The position numbers and the translations under genes were made by a program. Under the pieces are notes generated by a model. That model ran no database searches, was not told where the DNA came from, and saw only the letters and a list, made by a program, of their open reading frames with translations. From the NCBI RefSeq assembly GCF_001431665.1, contig NZ_LLXV01000055.1, positions 62,001 to 126,000 on the forward strand: 64,000 nucleotides of DNA, in the 5' to 3' direction. Positions 397 through 57,434 of the stretch are shown here, one piece after another. Source of the DNA: Stenotrophomonas beteli (lineage in GTDB: Bacteria > Pseudomonadota > Gammaproteobacteria > Xanthomonadales > Xanthomonadaceae). Position 1 is the stretch's first letter. Every line of letters starts with the position of its first letter.

Positions 397-2589
397 ATGG
401 ATGTCTCCCACCTGCTTGATGGCCTGAACCCGGCCCAGCGCGAAGCCGTCTCCGCTCCCCCCGGCCACCACCTGGTGCTGGCCGGTGCCGGTTCCGGCAA
501 GACCCGCGTACTCACCCACCGCATCGCCTGGCTGCATGAAGTCGACGGCGTGCCGACCCACGGCATTTTCGCGGTGACCTTCACCAACAAGGCGGCCGGC
601 GAAATGCGCCACCGCATCGATGCCCAGCTGCCCCATGGCAGCCGTGGCATGTGGATCGGTACCTTCCACGGCCTGGCCAACCGCCTGCTGCGCCTGCACT
701 GGCAGGATGCGAAGCTGCCCGAAGGCTTCCAGGTGATGGATTCGGACGACCAGCTGCGGCTGGTCAAGCGCGTGGTGCAGGCGCTGGAACTGGACGACGG
801 CAAGTACCCGCCCAAGCAGATCGCGTGGTGGATCAACGAACAGAAGGACGAAGGCCGCCGCCCGCAGCACATCCAGCCCGAACCGCACGACGCGTGGCTG
901 GAAACCATGCGCCAGGCCTACATCGAATACCAGGCGCGCTGCGACCGCGCCGGCCTGGTCGACTTCGCCGAGCTGCTGCTGCGCGCGCATGAACTGCTCC
1001 GCGACAACCCGGCGCTGCTGGCGCACTACCGCGCCCGCTTCCGCGAGATCCTGGTGGACGAGTTCCAGGACACCAACGCCATCCAGTACGCCTTCGTGCG
1101 CGTGCTGGCCGGTGATTCCGGCCACGTGTTCGTGGTCGGCGACGATGACCAGGCCATCTATGGCTGGCGTGGTGCCAAGGTCGAGAACGTGCAGGGCTTC
1201 CTGCGCGATTTCCCCGGCGCGCAGACCATCCGCCTGGAGCAGAACTACCGCTCCACCGCCAACATCCTCGGCGCCGCCAATGCGGTGATCGCGCACAACC
1301 CGGACCGCATCGGCAAGCAGCTGTGGACCGACAGTGGCGACGGTGAACCGATCGACCTGTACGCGGCGTACAACGAGATGGACGAGGCGCGCTACATCGT
1401 CGAGCGTGCCCGCCAGTGGGTGCGCGATGGTGGCAGCTACACCGAAGTGGCCGTGCTCTACCGCAGCAACGCGCAGTCGCGCGCGCTGGAAGAAGCGCTG
1501 CTGAGCGAGCAGGTGCCCTACCGCGTGTATGGCGGCATGCGCTTCTTCGAGCGTGCCGAAATCAAGGACGCGCTGGCCTACCTGCGCCTGCTGTCCAACC
1601 GCAACGATGACGCCGCCTTCGAGCGAGCGGTCAACACGCCCACCCGGGGCATCGGCGACCGCACGCTGGACGAAGTGCGCCGCGAGGCACGCGCGCAGGG
1701 CATCTCGTTGTGGGAAGCGACCATGCTGGTCACCCAGGGCAGTGCGCTGGCCGCACGTGCGCGCAATGCACTGGCCGGCTTCCTGGGGCTGGTCAACGAG
1801 CTGCAGGCGCAGACCGTGCACATGACCCTGGCCGAGCGCGTGGACCACGTGCTGGCCCGCTCGCAGCTGCGCGAGCACTGGAGCAAGGAAAGCCGCAATT
1901 CGCTGGATTCGGAATCGCGCACCGACAACCTCGACGAACTGGTCTCGGTCGCCTCGCGCTTCGTGCGCCGGGCCGACGACATTGAGGAAGTGGGCGAGGA
2001 CATGGACGAGCTGGTCGCGTTCCTGGCCTATGCCGCGCTGGAGGCCGGTGAAGGCCAGGCGCAGGCCGGCGAGGACGGCGTGCAGCTGATGACCCTGCAT
2101 TCGGCCAAGGGCCTGGAATTCCCGCTGGTGTTCCTGGCGGGCATGGAAGACGGCCTGTTCCCCAGCGCACGTTCGCTGGAAGAAAGCGGGCGGCTGGAGG
2201 AAGAGCGCCGCCTGGCCTACGTCGGCATCACCCGCGCGCGCCAGAAGCTGGTGCTGAGCTACGCCGAATCGCGCCGCATCCATGGGCAGGACAACTACAG
2301 CCTGCCGTCGCGCTTCCTGCGCGAGATCCCGCGCGAGCTGCTGCACGAAGTGCGCCCGAAGGTGCAGGTCTCGCGGCCGGCCTCGATGGGTGCCAGCCGG
2401 GTGATGGGCCATGCCTCGATCGAGGCGCCGCCAGTCAAGCTCGGCGCGCTGGTTACCCATCCCAAGTTCGGCGAAGGCATGGTGACCGACTACGAAGGCA
2501 GCGGCGCCCACGCCCGCGTGCAGGTCGAGTTTGCTGATGCCGGCAGCAAGTGGCTGGTGATGGCGTACGCCAACCTGACGGTGATCTGA
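397..2589 (+). CDS. uvrD: UvrD DNA helicase II
   Basis: Superfamily 1 3'-to-5' DNA helicase of nucleotide-excision and mismatch repair; 730 residues, the normal UvrD length. All helicase motifs are visible: Walker A GAGSGKT at residues 30-36, VTFTNKAA at about 60-67, Walker B DEFQDTN at 221-227, GDDDQAIYGWRGA near 248-260, LMTLHSAKGLEFPLVFLAG near 565, and AYVGITRAR near 610. The C-terminal end (KLGALVTHPKFGEG to WLVMAYANL) is the Tudor-like domain that separates UvrD/PcrA from Rep. The ATG at 397 follows a GGGGG tract. The gene lies just after the preceding FAD-protein gene and is followed by a paired GTAG repeat. Confidence 0.95.
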   Translation: MDVSHLLDGLNPAQREAVSAPPGHHLVLAGAGSGKTRVLTHRIAWLHEVDGVPTHGIFAVTFTNKAAGEMRHRIDAQLPHGSRGMWIGTFHGLANRLLRLHWQDAKLPEGFQVMDSDDQLRLVKRVVQALELDDGKYPPKQIAWWINEQKDEGRRPQHIQPEPHDAWLETMRQAYIEYQARCDRAGLVDFAELLLRAHELLRDNPALLAHYRARFREILVDEFQDTNAIQYAFVRVLAGDSGHVFVVGDDDQAIYGWRGAKVENVQGFLRDFPGAQTIRLEQNYRSTANILGAANAVIAHNPDRIGKQLWTDSGDGEPIDLYAAYNEMDEARYIVERARQWVRDGGSYTEVAVLYRSNAQSRALEEALLSEQVPYRVYGGMRFFERAEIKDALAYLRLLSNRNDDAAFERAVNTPTRGIGDRTLDEVRREARAQGISLWEATMLVTQGSALAARARNALAGFLGLVNELQAQTVHMTLAERVDHVLARSQLREHWSKESRNSLDSESRTDNLDELVSVASRFVRRADDIEEVGEDMDELVAFLAYAALEAGEGQAQAGEDGVQLMTLHSAKGLEFPLVFLAGMEDGLFPSARSLEESGRLEEERRLAYVGITRARQKLVLSYAESRRIHGQDNYSLPSRFLREIPRELLHEVRPKVQVSRPASMGASRVMGHASIEAPPVKLGALVTHPKFGEGMVTDYEGSGAHARVQVEFADAGSKWLVMAYANLTVI

Positions 2590-2615
2590 TCACCATCGAG
2601 GGATCGGGAATTGCT

Positions 2616-2681
2616 GTAGAGCCGAGCCCACGCTCGGCTGCTGTTGGCGGGGAAATCAGCCGAGCACAGGCTCGGCTCTAC
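2616..2681. repeat. Paired GTAG/SMAG-type palindromic repeat
   Basis: Two inverted units face each other: GTAGAGCCGAG...CTCGGCT, then AGCCGAG...CTCGGCTCTAC, separated by a short spacer. The GTAG head and imperfect stem match the SMAG (Stenotrophomonas GTAG) REP family. It sits between uvrD and the next gene and may act as a bidirectional transcript end. Confidence 0.8.
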
Positions 2682-2713
2682 AATAGCGGTCACATCCACC
2701 AGGAACGCCCCCG

Positions 2714-3268
2714 ATGACCGAACCGACCCTGCACGTTACCGTGACGTTGAACGCCAAGCTGCAGCCCGCGCATCGTCATGAACTGTTCGAGGATCCGCTC
2801 GACGCGTTGATGCAGGCCGCCGGGATCGGCGAGATCGTCGGCGGTGGCACCGCGACCTCCGACGAGGGCGAGGTCCTGTACGGCGACATCGAGGTTGCAC
2901 TGGTGGACGCCGCCGGCGTGCCCAAGCTGATCGACCTGCTGGAGCAGCTGGGTGCGCCGAAGGGCTCGCAGCTGCAGGGCGCGGGCGAGGCTGATCGCCA
3001 CTTCGGCGTGACCGAGGGCCTGGGCATCTACCTGGATGGCCTGAACCTGCCGGATGAAGTCTACGAGCAGTGCGATTCCAACCACGTGTTCGAGCAGCTG
3101 TCCGAGCGCATCGAAGGCCTGGGCGAGATCTGCAGCTGGTGGCAGGGCCCGAGCGAGACCGCGCTGTACATGTACGGCGAATCGTTCGAGGCGATGCGTG
3201 ATGCGATTGCCGGATTCGTAGCCAGCTACCCGCTGTGCCAGAACGCACGCGTGGTGCAGATCGCCTGA
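2714..3268 (+). CDS. Uncharacterised 184-residue protein
   Basis: I do not recognise the family. The protein is acidic, has no signal peptide, membrane segment or cysteine cluster, and contains one Gly-rich turn (GEIVGGGTATSDEGEV, residues about 38-53) followed by a predicted alpha/beta pattern. The second half has LGEICSWWQGPSETALYMYG. The two halves (GDIEVALVD..LIDLLEQLG and TALYMYGES..MRDAIAGFV) could be related beta-alpha units, but this is only an impression. It stands alone between two paired GTAG repeats and starts with ATG 14 bases after AGGAA. Coding is well supported by high third-position GC and a start with plausible upstream signals. Confidence 0.6.
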   Translation: MTEPTLHVTVTLNAKLQPAHRHELFEDPLDALMQAAGIGEIVGGGTATSDEGEVLYGDIEVALVDAAGVPKLIDLLEQLGAPKGSQLQGAGEADRHFGVTEGLGIYLDGLNLPDEVYEQCDSNHVFEQLSERIEGLGEICSWWQGPSETALYMYGESFEAMRDAIAGFVASYPLCQNARVVQIA

Positions 3269-3279
3269 GCGACATTGTT

Positions 3280-3338
3280 GTAGGGCCGAGCCCATGCTCG
3301 GCTCATGCATCCGAAGCCGAGCATGGGCTCGGCTCTAC
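3280..3338. repeat. Paired GTAG/SMAG-type palindromic repeat
   Basis: GTAGGGCCGAGCCCATGCTCGGC, a short spacer, then a near-perfect inverted copy ending GGCTCTAC. It begins 12 bases after the stop of the upstream gene. Confidence 0.8.
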
Positions 3339-3490
3339 AGAAGAGGGCGGGCGGAGCCTGTCCCCGGTAACACGTGACGATGCGCACGGGCCAATGCGCG
3401 GCGCCGGATTGATCCTGCTCAAGGCGCGGCCTGCACATCCGGTGTGCAATGGTGTTGTTCCCATCTGGCAGACCGCCACGGAGCCCCACC

Positions 3491-3937
3491 ATGTACAAGC
3501 GCATCCTGATTGCCACCGACGGGTCCGAGCTGGCCGACAAGGGCCTGGCCAAGGGCCTGGAACTGGCCAAGGACCTCAATGCCGAGGTCGATATCGTGAC
3601 CGTGTCCGAGCCGTGGGCCGTCGGCATGTACGACGCCATGGGCTGGAGCGTGGGCTACATGAACAGCCCGGAATACAAGGCTGACCGCGAGGAGGGCGCG
3701 CAGAAGGTGTTGCAGCCGGCGCTGGCCAAGGCCGCCGAGCAGGGCATCACCGCCAACCCGGTGCACGTGCTCGACCGCTACGCGGCCGACGGCATCATCG
3801 AGACGGCGGCCGAGCGCAACAGCGACCTGATCGTGATGACCTCGCATGGCCGCCGTGGCGTGACCCGTGTACTGCTGGGCAGCCAGACCGCCGAGGTACT
3901 GGCGCGCAGCACGCTGCCGGTGCTGGTCATCCGCTGA
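3491..3937 (+). CDS. Universal stress protein, UspA family
   Basis: A single-domain cytoplasmic stress protein of 148 residues, the normal Usp length. The start MYKRILIATDGSELADKGL is the typical first strand and nucleotide-binding loop. The C-terminal end HGRRGVTRVLLGS..EVLARSTLPVLVIR is the ATP-binding signature and last strand, so this looks like the ATP-binding UspFG/MJ0577-like subclass. I chose ATG 3491 because the 14 residues that an earlier in-frame ATG would add do not belong to the fold. The gene is monocistronic between repeats; the 150 bases before it show no clear promoter. Confidence 0.9.
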   Translation: MYKRILIATDGSELADKGLAKGLELAKDLNAEVDIVTVSEPWAVGMYDAMGWSVGYMNSPEYKADREEGAQKVLQPALAKAAEQGITANPVHVLDRYAADGIIETAAERNSDLIVMTSHGRRGVTRVLLGSQTAEVLARSTLPVLVIR

Positions 3938-4051
3938 TCCATACCCGCTGATTCAAGCGTTCCCCGGGGAGGGGGCCCGACGCCGGTGCGCAGGATGCGC
4001 GCCGGCGTTGTTTTTTGTGGGGGGATTGCGGGCCGTGCCGATGGCTTTGAG

Positions 4052-4090
4052 GGGGTCAGAGCCCTTTCCTGTGGAAAGGGATCCGACCCC
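4052..4090. repeat. Palindromic repeat, GGGGTCAGATCCCTTT family (copy 1)
   Basis: An imperfect inverted repeat: GGGGTCAGAGCCCTTTCC, a short loop, then GGAAAGGGATCCGACCCC. It lies between the convergent usp and DUF2782 genes. Five more copies occur in the window (7551, 39563, 54324, 60890, 61423). Confidence 0.75.
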
Positions 4091-41790: not shown

Positions 41791-43161
41791 ATGAACCAGA
41801 AGCAATTGCTGCGCCCGGTGGCAGATGCCGCCGCACTGGCCGCGCCACTGGCGAACTACAACACGGCCGATGCGGTTGAGTTCCTCAACACGCTGGAACT
41901 GACCCGCGCCGCGGAAACGCTGGCGGCGCTGCCGTTGCCGCGCGCGGTGAAGATGCTCGAAGCGCCCGAACTGCAGCGCAGCGGCGAGCTGGTGGCGGCG
42001 CTGCCGCCGGCCCGCGCCGCTGCCCTGCTCGGGCTGATGGCCGACGACCGCGCCACCGATATCGTCCACGAACTGGACGAGGAAGAGCGCGCGCGGCTGA
42101 TTCCGCTGCTGGGCACCGATGCCCGCCAGGCCATCCAGAAGCTGCTCAGCTACCCGCCCAACACCGCCGGCGCGCTGATGACCACCGAATACGTGGCGGT
42201 GCCCGCCAGCTGGACGGTGGCGCAGACCCTGCAGCACATCCGCCAGGTCGAGCGCACGCGCGAAACGGTGTACGCGATCTACGTGCTGGAGCCGGCCAGC
42301 CAGCAGCTGCAGCAGGTGGTGACCATGCGCCGGCTGATCACCGGCCTGCCGGAGGAATCGATCCTGGACGTGGCCCAGGTCAACCCACCGGTGACGGTGG
42401 ATGCGCTGATGGACCAGGAAGAAGTGGCGCGGCTGATCCGCCGCCACGACCTGCTGGCGATTCCGGTGGTCGATGCGCAGCAGCAGATGCTCGGCATCGT
42501 CACCGTCGACGACGTGCTCGATGCACTGATCGAGGAATCCACCGAAGACGCGCACAAGTTCGGCGGCATGGAAGCGCTGGACAAGCCGTACATGCAGATC
42601 GGCTTCTTCGAGATGCTGCGCAAGCGTGCCGGCTGGCTGAGCGTGCTGTTCGTGGGCGAGATGCTGACCGCCAGCGCGATGCAGCACTACGAGGATGAGC
42701 TGGCACGCGCGGTGGTGCTGACCCTGTTCATCCCGTTGATCATGAGTTCGGGCGGCAACTCCGGCTCGCAGGCCACCTCGCTGCTGATCCGCAGCCTGGC
42801 GCTGCGCGAACTGCGCCTGCGCGACTGGTGGAAGGTGGCCATCCGCGAGATCCCCACCGGCATGGTGCTGGGCGCCATCCTCGGCTGCCTGGCGATCGTG
42901 CGCATCGTGATCTGGCAGCTGGGCGGCCTGCATGACTACGGTGAGCACTGGATCCTGCTGGCGCTCACCATCGGCGCCGCCCTGGTGGGCATCGTCACCT
43001 TCGGTTCGCTGTCCGGCTCGATGCTGCCGTTCATACTCAAGCGCCTCGGCTTCGATCCGGCCAGCGCCTCCGCCCCGTTCGTGGCTACCCTGGTGGACGT
43101 GACCGGACTGGTGATCTATTTCAGCATCGCCGCGCTGATCCTGCACGGCACCTTGCTGTAA
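41791..43161 (+). CDS. mgtE: Magnesium transporter MgtE
   Basis: A 456-residue Mg2+ channel. The N-terminal superhelical domain (ADAVEFLNTLELTRAAETL, about 25-130) is followed by two CBS domains (about 140-255; LMTTEYVAVPASWTVAQTL, VVDAQQQMLGIVTVDDVLDAL) and five membrane helices from about 285. The last part has MSSGGNSGSQATSLLIRSLA, which is the pore sequence, and FVATLVDVTGLVIYFSIAAL. ATG 41791 fits the family start; upstream in-frame sequence is not conserved. A GTAG repeat unit follows. Confidence 0.94.
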   Translation: MNQKQLLRPVADAAALAAPLANYNTADAVEFLNTLELTRAAETLAALPLPRAVKMLEAPELQRSGELVAALPPARAAALLGLMADDRATDIVHELDEEERARLIPLLGTDARQAIQKLLSYPPNTAGALMTTEYVAVPASWTVAQTLQHIRQVERTRETVYAIYVLEPASQQLQQVVTMRRLITGLPEESILDVAQVNPPVTVDALMDQEEVARLIRRHDLLAIPVVDAQQQMLGIVTVDDVLDALIEESTEDAHKFGGMEALDKPYMQIGFFEMLRKRAGWLSVLFVGEMLTASAMQHYEDELARAVVLTLFIPLIMSSGGNSGSQATSLLIRSLALRELRLRDWWKVAIREIPTGMVLGAILGCLAIVRIVIWQLGGLHDYGEHWILLALTIGAALVGIVTFGSLSGSMLPFILKRLGFDPASASAPFVATLVDVTGLVIYFSIAALILHGTLL

Positions 43162-49673: not shown

Positions 49674-50576
49674 ATGAAGACCACCCTCGACGAAATGCAG
49701 GCCTTCCTGGCCGTCATCGACAGCGGCTCGATCAGCGCCGCCGCCGAACAGCTGGGGCAGACCCCCTCCGGCGTCAGCCGCGCACTGGGCCGGCTGGAGG
49801 AAAAGCTGGGCACCACCCTGCTGACCCGCACCACGCGCCGCCTGCACCTGACCGCCGAGGGTGAGGCCTACCTGCGCCATGCGCGGGCGATCATCGACGC
49901 GGTGGAATCGGCCGAGGAACAGATGGCGGCGCGTCGCGAGCGCCCGGCCGGGCGCCTGCGCGTGGACGCGGCGATGCCCTTCGTGCTGCACGTGATCGCA
50001 CCGCTGGTGGCCGGCTACCGCGCGCGCTACCCGGAGGTGCAGCTGGAGTTGAACAGCTCCGAACGCTATATCGACCTGCTGGAACGGCGCACGGACCTGG
50101 CCATCCGCATCGGTCCGCTGGCCGACTCGACGCTGCATGCGCGCTCGCTGGGACGCTGCCGGCTGCAGCTGGTCGCCAGCCCGGCCTATCTGGCCACGCA
50201 CGGTGAGCCAGCCAGCGTGGCGGCGCTGGGTCAGCACACCCTGCTGGGCTTCAATGAGCCGGAGTCGCTGAACCGCTGGCCGTTGCCGGGCGATGCCGAG
50301 GGTCAGTTGCTGGTACGCCCGGATATCGCCGTATCCAGCGGCGAAACCCTGCGCCGGCTGGCGGTGGAAGGCGTGGGCATCAGCTGCCTGTCCGATTTCG
50401 TCACCGATCGCGACCGTGCCGCGGGCACCCTGGTACCGGTGCTGGCGGCGCAGACGCTGGATGTGTACCAGCCGATCCATGCGGTGTATTACCGCAACAC
50501 CGCGGTATCGGCGCGGATCAGCTCGTTCCTGGATTACCTGGGTGATGCGATGGCGAAGAGCGATTACCTGCGCTGA
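49674..50576 (+). CDS. LysR-type transcriptional regulator
   Basis: A 300-residue LysR regulator. The winged helix-turn-helix is MKTTLDEMQAFLAVIDSGSI to SAAAEQLGQTPSGVSRALGRLEEKLGTTLLTR. The effector domain includes LRVDAAMPFVLHVIAPLV and SSERYIDLLERRTDLAIRIG. It belongs to the subgroup near AaeR/PtxR-like regulators (DLAIRIGPL). It probably controls the divergent MFS gene, maybe also dkgB. The effector is unknown. Confidence 0.92.
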   Translation: MKTTLDEMQAFLAVIDSGSISAAAEQLGQTPSGVSRALGRLEEKLGTTLLTRTTRRLHLTAEGEAYLRHARAIIDAVESAEEQMAARRERPAGRLRVDAAMPFVLHVIAPLVAGYRARYPEVQLELNSSERYIDLLERRTDLAIRIGPLADSTLHARSLGRCRLQLVASPAYLATHGEPASVAALGQHTLLGFNEPESLNRWPLPGDAEGQLLVRPDIAVSSGETLRRLAVEGVGISCLSDFVTDRDRAAGTLVPVLAAQTLDVYQPIHAVYYRNTAVSARISSFLDYLGDAMAKSDYLR

Positions 50577-50585
50577 GGGTTGCAG

Positions 50586-50655
50586 CCGGGTTGCCGGCCA
50601 GCGGCCGGCACTACCGTTCATCACGAGGGTAGTGCCGGCCGCTCGCCGGCAACCG
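50586..50655. repeat. Inverted repeat, CCGGGTTGCCGGCC type
   Basis: CCGGGTTGCCGGCCAGCGGC...CACTACC and GGTAGTGCCGGCCGCTCGCC...CCGG form a large inverted pair with a short centre. The GGTAGTGCCGGC unit is a GTAG-family variant. It stands between convergent genes and may end both transcripts. Confidence 0.7.
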
Positions 50656-50661
50656 GATCAA

Positions 50662-52782
50662 TCAGGCCGCGCGCGCCAACGCATCCCTCGCTGCCGCCGT
50701 GGTCGACAGGTCGAACACATCCACCGCATCGATCAGCCGGTTCGCCTGCTGTTCCAGACTGCGCGCGGCGGCGCTGGCTTCCTCCACCAACGCGGCATTC
50801 TGCTGGGTGGTGCCGTCCATCTGGATCACGGTCTGGCTGACCTGTTCGATGCCCGCGCTCTGCTCCTGCGAGGCGGCGGAGATCTCGGCCATGATGTCGG
50901 TCACGCGCTGCACCGACGCCACGATCTCGGCCATGGTGTCACCGGCCTCGCGCACGCGCTGTGCACCGTGCCCCACCTGTTCCACCGAGGCTTCGATCAG
51001 CGCCTTGATCTCCTTGGCGGCTGCGGCCGAGCGCTGCGCCAGCGTGCGCACTTCACTGGCGACCACCGCGAAGCCACGGCCCTGTTCGCCGGCGCGTGCC
51101 GCTTCCACCGCCGCGTTCAATGCCAGGATGTTGGTCTGGAAGGCGATGCCATCGATCACGCTGATGATCTCGGCGATCTGCCGCGACGAGGTCTCGATGG
51201 CGCCCATTGTCGCCACCACCTGGCCGACCACGCTGCCGCCCTGCGAGGCGACCGCATGCGCGCCGATCGCCAGCTGGTTGGCCTGGCGCGCATGTTCGGC
51301 GTTCTGGCGCACGGTGGAGGTCAGTTCCTCCATCGACGCGGCGGTCTCTTCCAGGTTGGCCGCCTGCTGCTCGGTACGGCGCGACAGGTCGTTGTTGCCT
51401 GCGGCAATCTCTGCCGCCGCGCTGTGGATGCTGCCGGAGGCGTGCTTGATGTCAGTGACGATGGTCGCCAGTTGCGCGGCGGTGGTGTTGGCGTCGCCGG
51501 CAATACGTGCGAACACGCCCTGGAAATCGCCGTGCATGCGCGCGCCGAGGCGGCCATCGGCAATTGCGCGCAACATGCTGGAGACCTCGCCAAGGTTCAG
51601 TTCGGTGGTCTGCATCAGACGGTTCAGACCGTCGACCATCGCGCGGAAATCATGCTCGAAGCGCGCGCTGTCGCCGCGCTGGCTGAAGTCACCGGCGGCG
51701 GCCGCTTCGGCCAGGCGGCGGATCTCACCATTGATCATGCCGAGGTTGCGCTTGGCCATGTCCAGCGCCTCGGTGATCACTGCCTTCTCGCCGGGCAGGC
51801 GTTCCATGTCCTGGCTGAGGTCGCCGATCGCATAGCGGCCCATGATCGCGATCGCGCGCATCTTGACCTGGATATGCGCATCGACCAGAGCATTGCTGTC
51901 GGCCACCATCGCGCCGAACGCACCGGGGAAGGCGCTGGCATCCATGCGGTGGCTGATGCTGCCGGCTTCATGCGCCTGTGCCATCGCGGCCTGGGCATCC
52001 AGCACACCGCGCAGTGTCGATTGCACTGCCTGCATGGCCTGCGCGAGGCGGCCGATCTCGTCGCGGCTGCGCACCTGCACCACGTGCTGCAGGTCGCCGA
52101 CAGCCACGGCGCGCGCAGCGGCTTCCACCGCCAGCACCGGCTGCACCACCGCACGCCGCAGCCACCAGGCCAGGCCCATCAGCAGCAGCACCGCAGCCAG
52201 TACGGTCAGTGCCGCGCACAGCAGCAGGGTCTGCCGCGCCTGTTGCGAACGCGCGGCCACGGCTGCTTCGGCCACCTGCGCGGCGTGCGTGCTCAGCGCA
52301 TCCAGTGCCGACGCCGCCGGGCGATCCTTGCCGCGCACCAGGGTGTCGCCCGCGGCAGGCGCGTAGCCGGCCTCGGCGAAGGCCTGCAGCGCGCCGTGGT
52401 AGTCCTGCTGCAGCTGCGCATGCAGGCCGACGAACGTCTGCGCCTGCTCTCGCGTGCGTGCATCGGGGCTGCTGGCCAGGCCCTTGGCCAACTGCTGGAC
52501 CAGGCGGCCTTCGCTGTCGAAGGCGTCCAGGTGCCGCTTGCGCAGCGCGTCATCGTGGCCGCGCAGCAGCACATTCTTCCATTCCTGCACCTGGCCGCGG
52601 AACTCGCGCTGCAGGCGTTCGGCGTCGCGGCTGTGCGCGACTTCGGGCGGAACCTCGGTGGACAGTTTCAACCAGGCAGACGCCAGGCCGGCCAGGGCGC
52701 ACAGCAGAACCACAGCCAAGCCAATGGAAACCGCGCCGAGCAGCTTGGACTGCAGCCGCGGCGCACGGGTGGACGCATTCAT
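50662..52782 (-). CDS. Methyl-accepting chemotaxis protein
   Basis: A 706-residue chemoreceptor. ATG 52782 puts a first membrane helix at about residues 13-33 ([21 protein letters not shown]), then a helical periplasmic sensor part of about 150 residues, a second helix near 190-210 ([21 protein letters not shown]), HAMP ([22 protein letters not shown]), a second HAMP-like segment, and the signalling domain with [20 protein letters not shown] and [20 protein letters not shown]. The signal is unknown; there is no C-terminal CheR-binding NWETF peptide. No che genes lie nearby. Confidence 0.92.
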
Positions 52783-56882: not shown

Positions 56883-57161
56883 AGGTCGTGGCACAACCGC
56901 CTGCACACCATGTGCAGCCAGCGGAAGAGGGCGGCCATCGGTGGACGGTCCGCGCGCGGAGCCTTCGGTGCGCCGGCACTGCTGCCATCGTCGTTGCCGG
57001 CAGGTAGCACCGGTGCGGAACGTCGCTGGCAGTGGCGGCGGACCGGGGCCCGGCGTGCGGTCCGTTGCCTTCCACGCCCCGCCCGAAGGCGATGACGGTG
57101 GACGGCGACGATGGCCGCTGGGGCTTGCGCCCCGGGTGTTGCTTCAAGTCATGACGTGACA

Positions 57162-57302
57162 GGTCATGGGGTTTGGAGTGGGAATCGAACCCACGACAGA
57201 CGGATTACGGATCCGTTGCTCTGACCAAGCTGAGCTATCCAGTTGGGGACCGCGCGGAATCGAACCGCGTACCGGCGAACCGGCGCCTGCCTGCAGCAGG
57301 CG
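57162..57302 (-). ncRNA. tRNA-like structured RNA upstream of slipin-rtcB, YrlA/Y RNA-like candidate
   Basis: Read on the minus strand, the sequence contains a D-arm look-alike TAGCTCAGCTTGGTCAGAGC, an anticodon-like arm ACGGA-TCCGTAA-TCCGT, a 5-base variable loop and a T-arm GTGGG-TTCGATT-CCCAC. All are spaced as in a tRNA. The acceptor stem has only 4 pairs (TGGA/TCCA, 57238-57241 with 57174-57177) and loop position 33 is C, not T. Just outside, GGTC/GACC (57248-57251 with 57162-57165) can pair. A second T-arm CGCGG-TTCGATT-CCGCG lies at 57253-57269, and a perfect hairpin CGCCTGC-CTGCA-GCAGGCG at 57284-57302. tRNA mimicry without a full acceptor stem is known for YrlA Y RNAs at RtcB/Ro loci. 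No Ro60 gene is in the window. Ends are approximate. Confidence 0.5.
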
Positions 57303-57411
57303 ATCCAGGCGATGGCATGTCCGCGACCTCCGGCATACGCCACGGCAACGCCGCGCGCACCAGCCCGTGGTTGAAACGGGACCGTTGGAAAATCGAGGGT
57401 ACAGGCCACCG

Positions 57412-57434
57412 ACATTATCGGTGAGCGATAATGT
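57412..57434. promoter_or_regulatory. Perfect palindromic operator-like site
   Basis: ACATTATCG-GTGAG-CGATAATGT is a perfect 9-base inverted repeat; a third half-site AGATAATGTC follows at about 57448. It lies upstream (minus strand) of the tRNA-like RNA and slipin-rtcB and is the clearest protein-binding type palindrome there. The bound regulator is unknown. Confidence 0.55.

Follow-up and report, generated by a model that had tools for sequence, protein, structure and literature searches.

For the question of what bacterial RtcB repairs and how RNA-repair enzymes find damaged RNA, a conserved RNA that has modules shaped like transfer RNA (tRNA) and is locked to the slipin gene of RNA-repair operons offers a concrete candidate for the component that recruits them. 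We analyzed a 64,000-nucleotide (nt) stretch of the Stenotrophomonas beteli genome (assembly GCF_001431665.1, contig NZ_LLXV01000055.1, positions 62,001 to 126,000; hereafter the window), in which an earlier sequence-only reading had pointed out a tRNA-like RNA at 57162-57302, upstream of a slipin gene and rtcB. This span marks a real element and covers only the middle of a predicted structured RNA of about 500 nt, whose ends would lie at about 57434 and 56931. The RNA consists, from 5' to 3', of a three-way-junction domain, two tRNA-like modules (TL1 and TL2) and a closed 3' domain, followed by slipin (Table 1). Sequence comparison shows how it is structured, that its pairs covary and that it is tied to slipin. 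We give about an even chance to the reading that this non-coding RNA, heading slipin-type RNA-repair operons, serves as a trans-acting, tRNA-mimicking scaffold.

The tRNA-like fold on the minus strand is supported by ARAGORN, which names 57244-57167 (-) tRNA-Thr(CGT), by the Rfam tRNA model (57241-57174, 48.1 bits, cut-off 29), one of two covariance models proposed for searching this element, and by covariation among relatives. Direct reading bears out the details that had drawn attention to it: the TL2 acceptor stem is cut to 4 base pairs (bp; TGGA/TCCA), the anticodon loop TCCGTAA places a C at position 33 and the D and T arms are canonical, with the elbow signature (D-loop GG, T-loop TTC, TA at positions 8-9) in place. 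The second T-arm reported directly before this element is also present, but it is not a lone arm. It lies at 57269-57253 and belongs to TL1, which has a 6-bp acceptor with one G-U pair (GGATCG/CGGTCC, 57306-57301/57252-57247), a D-arm-like hairpin and a CCGG-UUCG-CCGG hairpin replacing the anticodon arm. The window TL1, which scores under our parser's full-cloverleaf limit, ends in ...GGTCC-CCAA; the corresponding end is ...GGTTC-ACCA in 10 of the 31 Stenotrophomonas loci described below.

A full-cloverleaf TL2 could be parsed in 120 of 132 distinct upstream regions, and all TL2 counts refer to these 120. The inner four acceptor pairs are kept in 118, 116, 116 and 107 of them (shuffled means 91, 84, 68 and 63) while the outer three are mostly lost (49, 40 and 25; shuffled means 30, 27 and 26; highest shuffles 42, 37 and 37), so that a short acceptor is the rule and not a sign of decay. 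As the first two outer pairs exceed every shuffle, a minority of loci has a longer acceptor stem. Records of the TL1 type (n = 58) typically keep six acceptor pairs. A decoding tRNA would carry a 7-bp acceptor and a 3' CCA; seven inner pairs are found in 8 of the 120 TL2 modules, and CCA stands at positions 74-76 in 12 and one position earlier in 10 more. It would also carry a 7-nt anticodon loop with U33, in place of which the window has C33. Among relatives, 51 TL2 anticodon loops are not 7 nt long (range 3 to 8 nt) and 31 of the 58 TL1-type loops have 4 nt, sizes which argue that the modules are not decoding. The 69 seven-base TL2 loops hold 27 different triplets, with U33 in 48 of them. 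The elbow signature recurs throughout (GG 120/120, TTC 120/120, TA 116/120), although TTC is a prerequisite of the parser, which also gives preference to GG and TA. The parser further picks the best-pairing anticodon arm; as a control, perfect arms of at least 5 bp were counted in 171 of 178 records against a shuffled mean of 19.

When 33 sequences are aligned, their consensus structure consists of a long closing stem P0, stem P1 and hairpins P2 and P3, followed by TL1 and TL2. The alignment comprises the window and 32 of 74 listed regions, the farther rows having seemed unalignable. Across these 33 loci, 94.2% of cells are paired at the 71 pairs of this structure, which was itself derived from the same alignment (shuffled 80.8%, slid 37-46%). 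At 47 of the 71 pairs both sides have changed (slid 20-33, shuffled mean 28), with a covariation score of 0.394 compared with 0.066-0.081 for slid alignments, although the sequences are related and the shuffle comparisons are not p-values. The compensatory changes that had been proposed as a check on the element are thus present.

Both flanks of the junction and tRNA-like modules carry further structure. The core of the 5' hairpin occurs once in the genome and differs in 1.1% of cells across the 31 Stenotrophomonas loci. At the same place, on the 5' side of the junction, 20 of 71 loci carry a perfect inverted repeat, mostly of a different sequence (shuffled controls 1/355). We considered this palindrome as an operator of a shared regulon but disfavour that reading: the core is found only once in this genome, and relatives preserve the pairing of the arms in a different sequence, which would better suit an RNA hairpin. 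The hairpin at 57150..57168 differs in 2.0% of cells within the genus. At the position of the 3' closing helix, 41 of 118 loci have a perfect helix 9 bp or longer, mostly GGAAACGCCCC/GGGGCGTTTCC (shuffled controls 7/1180), and the window holds its own arms at the same offset. Perfect helices of at least 10 bp are by themselves not rare in this GC-rich DNA, 54 of 118 loci and 184 of 1180 shuffles having one, and it is the fixed offset that carries weight. Directly before the slipin start, an inverted repeat GTTCGACCCG/CGGGTCGAAC lies at 56882-56841 (-), the 5' arm of which could alternatively make another T-arm-like hairpin.

Table 1. Positions of the RNA domains and of the genes behind them in the S. 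beteli window.
Feature	Position	Strand	Basis or reading
5' hairpin ACATTATCG-CTCAC-CGATAATGT	57412..57434	(-)	RNA hairpin or operator
Three-way-junction domain, stems P0, P1, P2, P3, core GGUGCGC...GCGUAUGCC	57308..57411	(-)	RNAalifold and pair counts
TL1 tRNA-like module	57244..57306	(-)	by-eye reading; pairing statistics come from relatives
TL2 tRNA-like module, 4-bp acceptor, C33, loop TCCGTAA	57174..57241	(-)	ARAGORN, Rfam tRNA, covariation
Hairpin CATGAC-CTGTCAC-GTCATG, 7-nt anticodon-like loop	57150..57168	(-)	direct reading
GNRA tetraloop hairpin GGGGC-GCAA-GCCCC	57120..57133	(-)	direct reading; similar hairpins in related loci
3' domain, 10-bp closing helix GCGGCCATCG (57118-57109) / CGATGGCCGC (56940-56931)	56931..57118	(-)	offset count in relatives
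Slipin (SPFH/Band 7) gene, 374 amino acids	55688..56812	(-)	Pfam PF01145, E 5e-34; fold matches stomatin
rtcB RNA ligase gene, 406 amino acids	54411..55631	(-)	Pfam PF01139, E 8e-126

The proposed tie of the tRNA mimic to an RNA-repair operon holds up well beyond the window. We scanned named genomes and used the best 80 of at least 569 confirmed slipin relatives, near-duplicates included. These loci span Stenotrophomonas, Xanthomonas, Lysobacter, Luteimonas, Pseudoxanthomonas, Dyella and Rhodanobacter as well as Pseudomonas, Acidovorax, Ottowia, Competibacter, Beggiatoa and others. In all 77 with at least 800 nt of upstream sequence, a T-arm motif lies in sense orientation no more than 1 kb before slipin, and 71 of them have two or more; the antisense count is 0/77, and control windows elsewhere in the same loci gave 9/267. 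The motif was further found within 1 kb in 39 of 40 family loci (slipin 45-64% identical; ARAGORN alone makes some call in 29 of these), within 1500 nt in 14 of 14 loci of a class-level sample, and in all six inspected of nine plasmid-collection matches (Citrobacter, two E. coli, Burkholderia, Photobacterium, Subdoligranulum).

A further line of evidence comes from R1, a covariance model of the junction domain only, with no tRNA part, trained on 33 sequences that come mostly from the family and its close relatives. In the window, which is one of these training sequences, R1 matches 57410-57307 (E 2e-22). Among 51 distant loci, none of them in the training set, 33 are matched at E<0.01 (34 matches, two of them in the Beggiatoa locus L145), including a Firmicute record at E 5e-6. 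A broader junction-domain model, R2, was trained on an alignment of 66 rows, including one probable false match (window 41886-41962) and a second match in locus L123. Under stricter filters, R2 gave 13 matches at E<=1e-4 in 398 genomes of the phylum, one per genome. The window is the thirteenth, with slipin; in the other 12 loci T-arms follow directly downstream in all and slipin in 11, the last (L186) ending at a contig edge. Six of the 13 genomes had already been among those searched earlier, and the seven new ones all have T-arms, six with slipin and one cut by its contig. In the 51 distant loci, many of which overlap with its training set so that the result is not independent, 40 of 41 R2 matches (E<0.01; 38 loci) are sense, upstream of slipin and have a T-arm within 200 nt; the R1 search of these loci and the 398-genome search are the fairer tests.

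In the loci scanned, Rfam 15 at its own cut-offs gives only ordinary tRNA matches over these RNAs. An Rfam sX9 match in the Xanthomonas-like locus L037 falls just outside the RNA and PMC10924375 speaks of several sX9 genes, so it was not counted as transcript evidence. No slipin relatives were found in phage records at E 1e-20. A search of plasmid DNA gave one short match, to a Streptomyces record (60 nt over TL2, E 7e-9).

Within Stenotrophomonas, the element is present at >=83% identity in 31 of 91 genomes, and the set of genomes with a slipin orthologue of >=87% identity is identical. Another 45 genomes have short matches only, mostly over the tRNA-like part, which we presume to be ordinary tRNA genes; two genomes with a slipin of 59-60% identity (G026 and G049) have two T-arms upstream as well. 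In these 31 loci, differing cells make up 0-1.9% of TL2 outside its loops, 2.6% of the junction domain and 3.8% of TL1, compared with 18.9% of the TL2 anticodon and D loops. After these two loops, the spacer towards slipin is the least conserved part measured (8.2%). All seven columns of the TL2 anticodon loop vary within the genus, and sister species differ in it (TCCGTAA, TCCTGAT, TCCTGAG). Related species share loop variants and the changes may therefore be few events.

The reported link to slipin-rtcB stands for slipin and less so for rtcB: within the fetched stretches of 85 slipin loci we found rtcB in 63, rtcR in 14 and RlaP in 8. With some of the remaining loci being short contigs, this indicates that the RNA is tied to slipin more than to rtcB. 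An SPFH gene within the rtc locus is described for Pseudomonas aeruginosa in PMC13086221. In E. coli, slipin is followed by RlaP (PF10127); the leader of one such slipin-RlaP locus (L169:4500-6119) combines a sigma-54-like motif with one T-arm, has no junction-domain match and is possibly a reduced, T-arm-only form. At least 80% of this slipin-and-leader query is found in 1621 of 5426 complete E. coli genomes, which makes tests feasible in tractable strains.

The structure model of the window slipin (pLDDT, the predicted local distance difference test, 87; pTM, the predicted template modelling score, 0.66) has its best fold matches, at Z about 15 to 17.6, in stomatin (which reaches 17.6), HflK and prohibitin. 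The major vault protein follows with VIA Z 10-12 (Foldseek E 1e-9 to 1e-8). The window protein has no strong membrane segment (maximum 19-residue hydropathy 1.34), and 5 of 36 aligned slipins reach a hydropathy of 1.6.

Two other places in the window were noted. A small open reading frame at 57762-57661 (-), beginning MNAHSVAIAKLLPCL with a TTG start, is conserved across the genus, with 3.4% of cells differing, and is followed by hairpins and a terminator-like stretch. At 50574-50670 (+), a long GC-rich inverted repeat weakly matches an Rfam model of an animal microRNA (miRNA; 29.9/90 bits) and is more likely a repeat element; sub-threshold matches to miRNA families in the window were put down to chance or repeats.

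How could such an RNA work? In the scaffold reading, the junction domain, the two tRNA-like modules (one to several elsewhere) and the closed 3' domain would form one RNA whose junction and 3' domains may bind the slipin oligomer. The modules, mostly with shortened acceptor stems and non-decoding anticodon arms, would dock or imitate damaged tRNA for RtcB and RlaP, a scaffold role comparable to that of Y RNA for Ro60. These roles, and action in trans, are our inference. An RNA-repair role is supported by the counts of rtcB, rtcR and RlaP given above and by a sigma-54-like motif, which nine loci carry 73-85 nt upstream of the junction hairpin. Eight of the nine also hold rtcR, and the motif would place the RNA at the start of RtcR-type transcripts. 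Action in trans is favoured by the spacer between RNA and slipin, the least conserved part within the genus after the two TL2 loops, and by two exceptional loci. In L145, a Beggiatoa metagenome-assembled genome (MAG), three tandem units of ~544 nt (2405-4060), each holding junction, two tRNA-likes and 3' part, precede one slipin. In L083 (2758-4093), 1.4 kb separate the RNA from slipin, and a gene for PhyH (PF05721, E 6e-30), encoded on the other strand, lies in this interval. These two excepted, the junction-to-slipin distance in the 51 distant loci is 311 to 649 nt. Operons with a leader would be expected to have a single copy beside the start codon, and both departures thus favour a trans-acting RNA gene. 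The sequence-only reading had offered substrate, sensor or tether as roles, which sequence cannot separate; a tether or scaffold fits best.

Several observations weigh against the scaffold reading. L083 is a single draft-genome contig and L145 a MAG, and in nearly all loci RNA and slipin share a strand, with the RNA shortly before the gene, the position of a cis leader. Further, locus L060 (slipin 45% identical) has no T-arm in the 1 kb upstream, 18 of the 51 distant loci lack an R1 match at E<0.01 and 13 a fitting R2 match, E. coli and Citrobacter keep a single T-arm and no junction match, and 20 of the 85 slipin loci, several of them short contigs, have none of rtcB, rtcR and RlaP. The sigma-54-like motifs were counted without a chance control. 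Finally, conservation of the RNA within the genus is no higher than that of the slipin start, where 0.4, 1.0 and 1.5% of cells differ at codon positions 1, 2 and 3 of the first 37 codons (junction domain 2.6% vs third positions 1.5%), and the case thus rests on the distant comparison.

A cis-acting leader, in which tRNA-like modules in the 5' untranslated region sense tRNA damage or a tRNA-binding protein and switch slipin-rtcB expression, is a tentative alternative that we consider unlikely. It would account for the position of the RNA in nearly all loci and, in RtcR-type loci, for its place at the transcript start as suggested by the sigma-54-like motifs; the further inverted repeat at 56882-56841 near the slipin start would also suit it. 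The three tandem units before one slipin, the opposite-strand gene between RNA and slipin and the poorly conserved spacer within the genus all speak against it.

It is rather improbable that the RNA is a bait or substrate, with anticodon nucleases cutting the tRNA-like arms instead of real tRNAs and RtcB resealing them, so that the RNA would act as decoy or damage signal. The TL2 anticodon and D loops being the most variable part in the genus, perhaps through few events, would fit such a role, as would the diversity of triplets in the seven-base loops and the competitive-inhibitor role proposed in PMC7790460 for the tRNA-like part of YrlA. However, the frequent TL1 tetraloops and TL2 loops of 3 to 8 nt would make poor anticodon-nuclease targets, and the large junction and 3' domains would be left unexplained.

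That the modules are degenerate tRNA genes, drifting remnants of a tRNA array, is highly improbable. ARAGORN does return scattered amino acids or '???', the acceptors are short and further ARAGORN tRNA calls adjoin a few loci (L079, L083), yet the stems are kept by compensatory change across very distant species, those of TL2 hardly vary within the genus and the RNA co-occurs with slipin. Unless the alignments are wrong throughout, covariation refutes the plain-pseudogene outcome that had been named as the alternative. A working tRNA-Thr(CGU), as called by ARAGORN, is ruled out with near certainty by the short (4-bp) acceptor, the C at position 33 and the loop differences among sister species.

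Returning to the scaffold reading, a more specific form of it is conceivable from the slipin model, although we regard it as doubtful: a soluble SPFH ring or cage around the ~500-nt tRNA-mimic RNA, a vault-like ribonucleoprotein that would gather broken tRNAs with RtcB and RlaP. If true, this would involve a distinct RNA class in Proteobacteria and at least one Firmicute record, once in tandem. Vaults contain a small RNA (vault RNA), and the likeness lies in the SPFH-type fold, the slipin model matching the major vault protein. Stomatin, HflK and prohibitin, however, match it better, and a vault-like shell is hypothetical here.

With regard to known systems, Burroughs and Aravind are said to have described, in 2016 (NAR 44:8525), RNA-repair modules with SPFH/Band-7 proteins and a novel cognate tRNA-like non-coding RNA, which we take to be very probably the same molecule in outline. 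The present analysis yielded the arrangement of two modules in series, their shortened acceptors, the junction and 3' domains and the distribution among bacteria; no earlier description of them was found in the literature searched, a search in which that article was not included.

A parallel grouping of tRNA operon, rtcB and slipin under stress control is known from Anabaena, where, according to PMC10272220, the repressor TrcR is common to a stress-induced tRNA (trn) operon and rtcB, and a slipin gene rises 42-fold when TrcR is deleted; unlike here, that tRNA operon sits on a megaplasmid.

The closest comparison is with YrlA, to whose class the sequence-only reading had tentatively assigned the RNA. 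As PMC7790460 and PMC9879122 describe, the Salmonella RtcR operon carries Y RNAs, and YrlA is a non-coding RNA with a tRNA-like domain, encoded with RtcB under RtcR and sigma-54. TL2 likewise provides a tRNA-like domain. Binding of Ro60 and PNPase is another trait of YrlA. Membership in YrlA (Rfam RF02553) itself could be rejected: the window scores 21.7 bits against a cut-off of 69, Photobacterium locus L171 scores 27.0 bits, and none of 20 further loci has a match at the gathering threshold. The absence of a Ro60 gene nearby was confirmed, as no TROVE gene (Ro60/Rsr, PF05731) exceeds the cut-off in any of the 91 Stenotrophomonas genomes, the window genome included; weak sub-threshold PF05731 matches occur in seven others. 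In contrast to YrlA, the partner here is slipin, an SPFH protein, and not Ro60, and two tRNA-like modules stand in series behind a three-way junction and are followed by a 3' domain. With no Ro60 gene over the cut-off, the slipin-linked RNA looks like a different solution from that of rsr-yrlBA-rtcBA.
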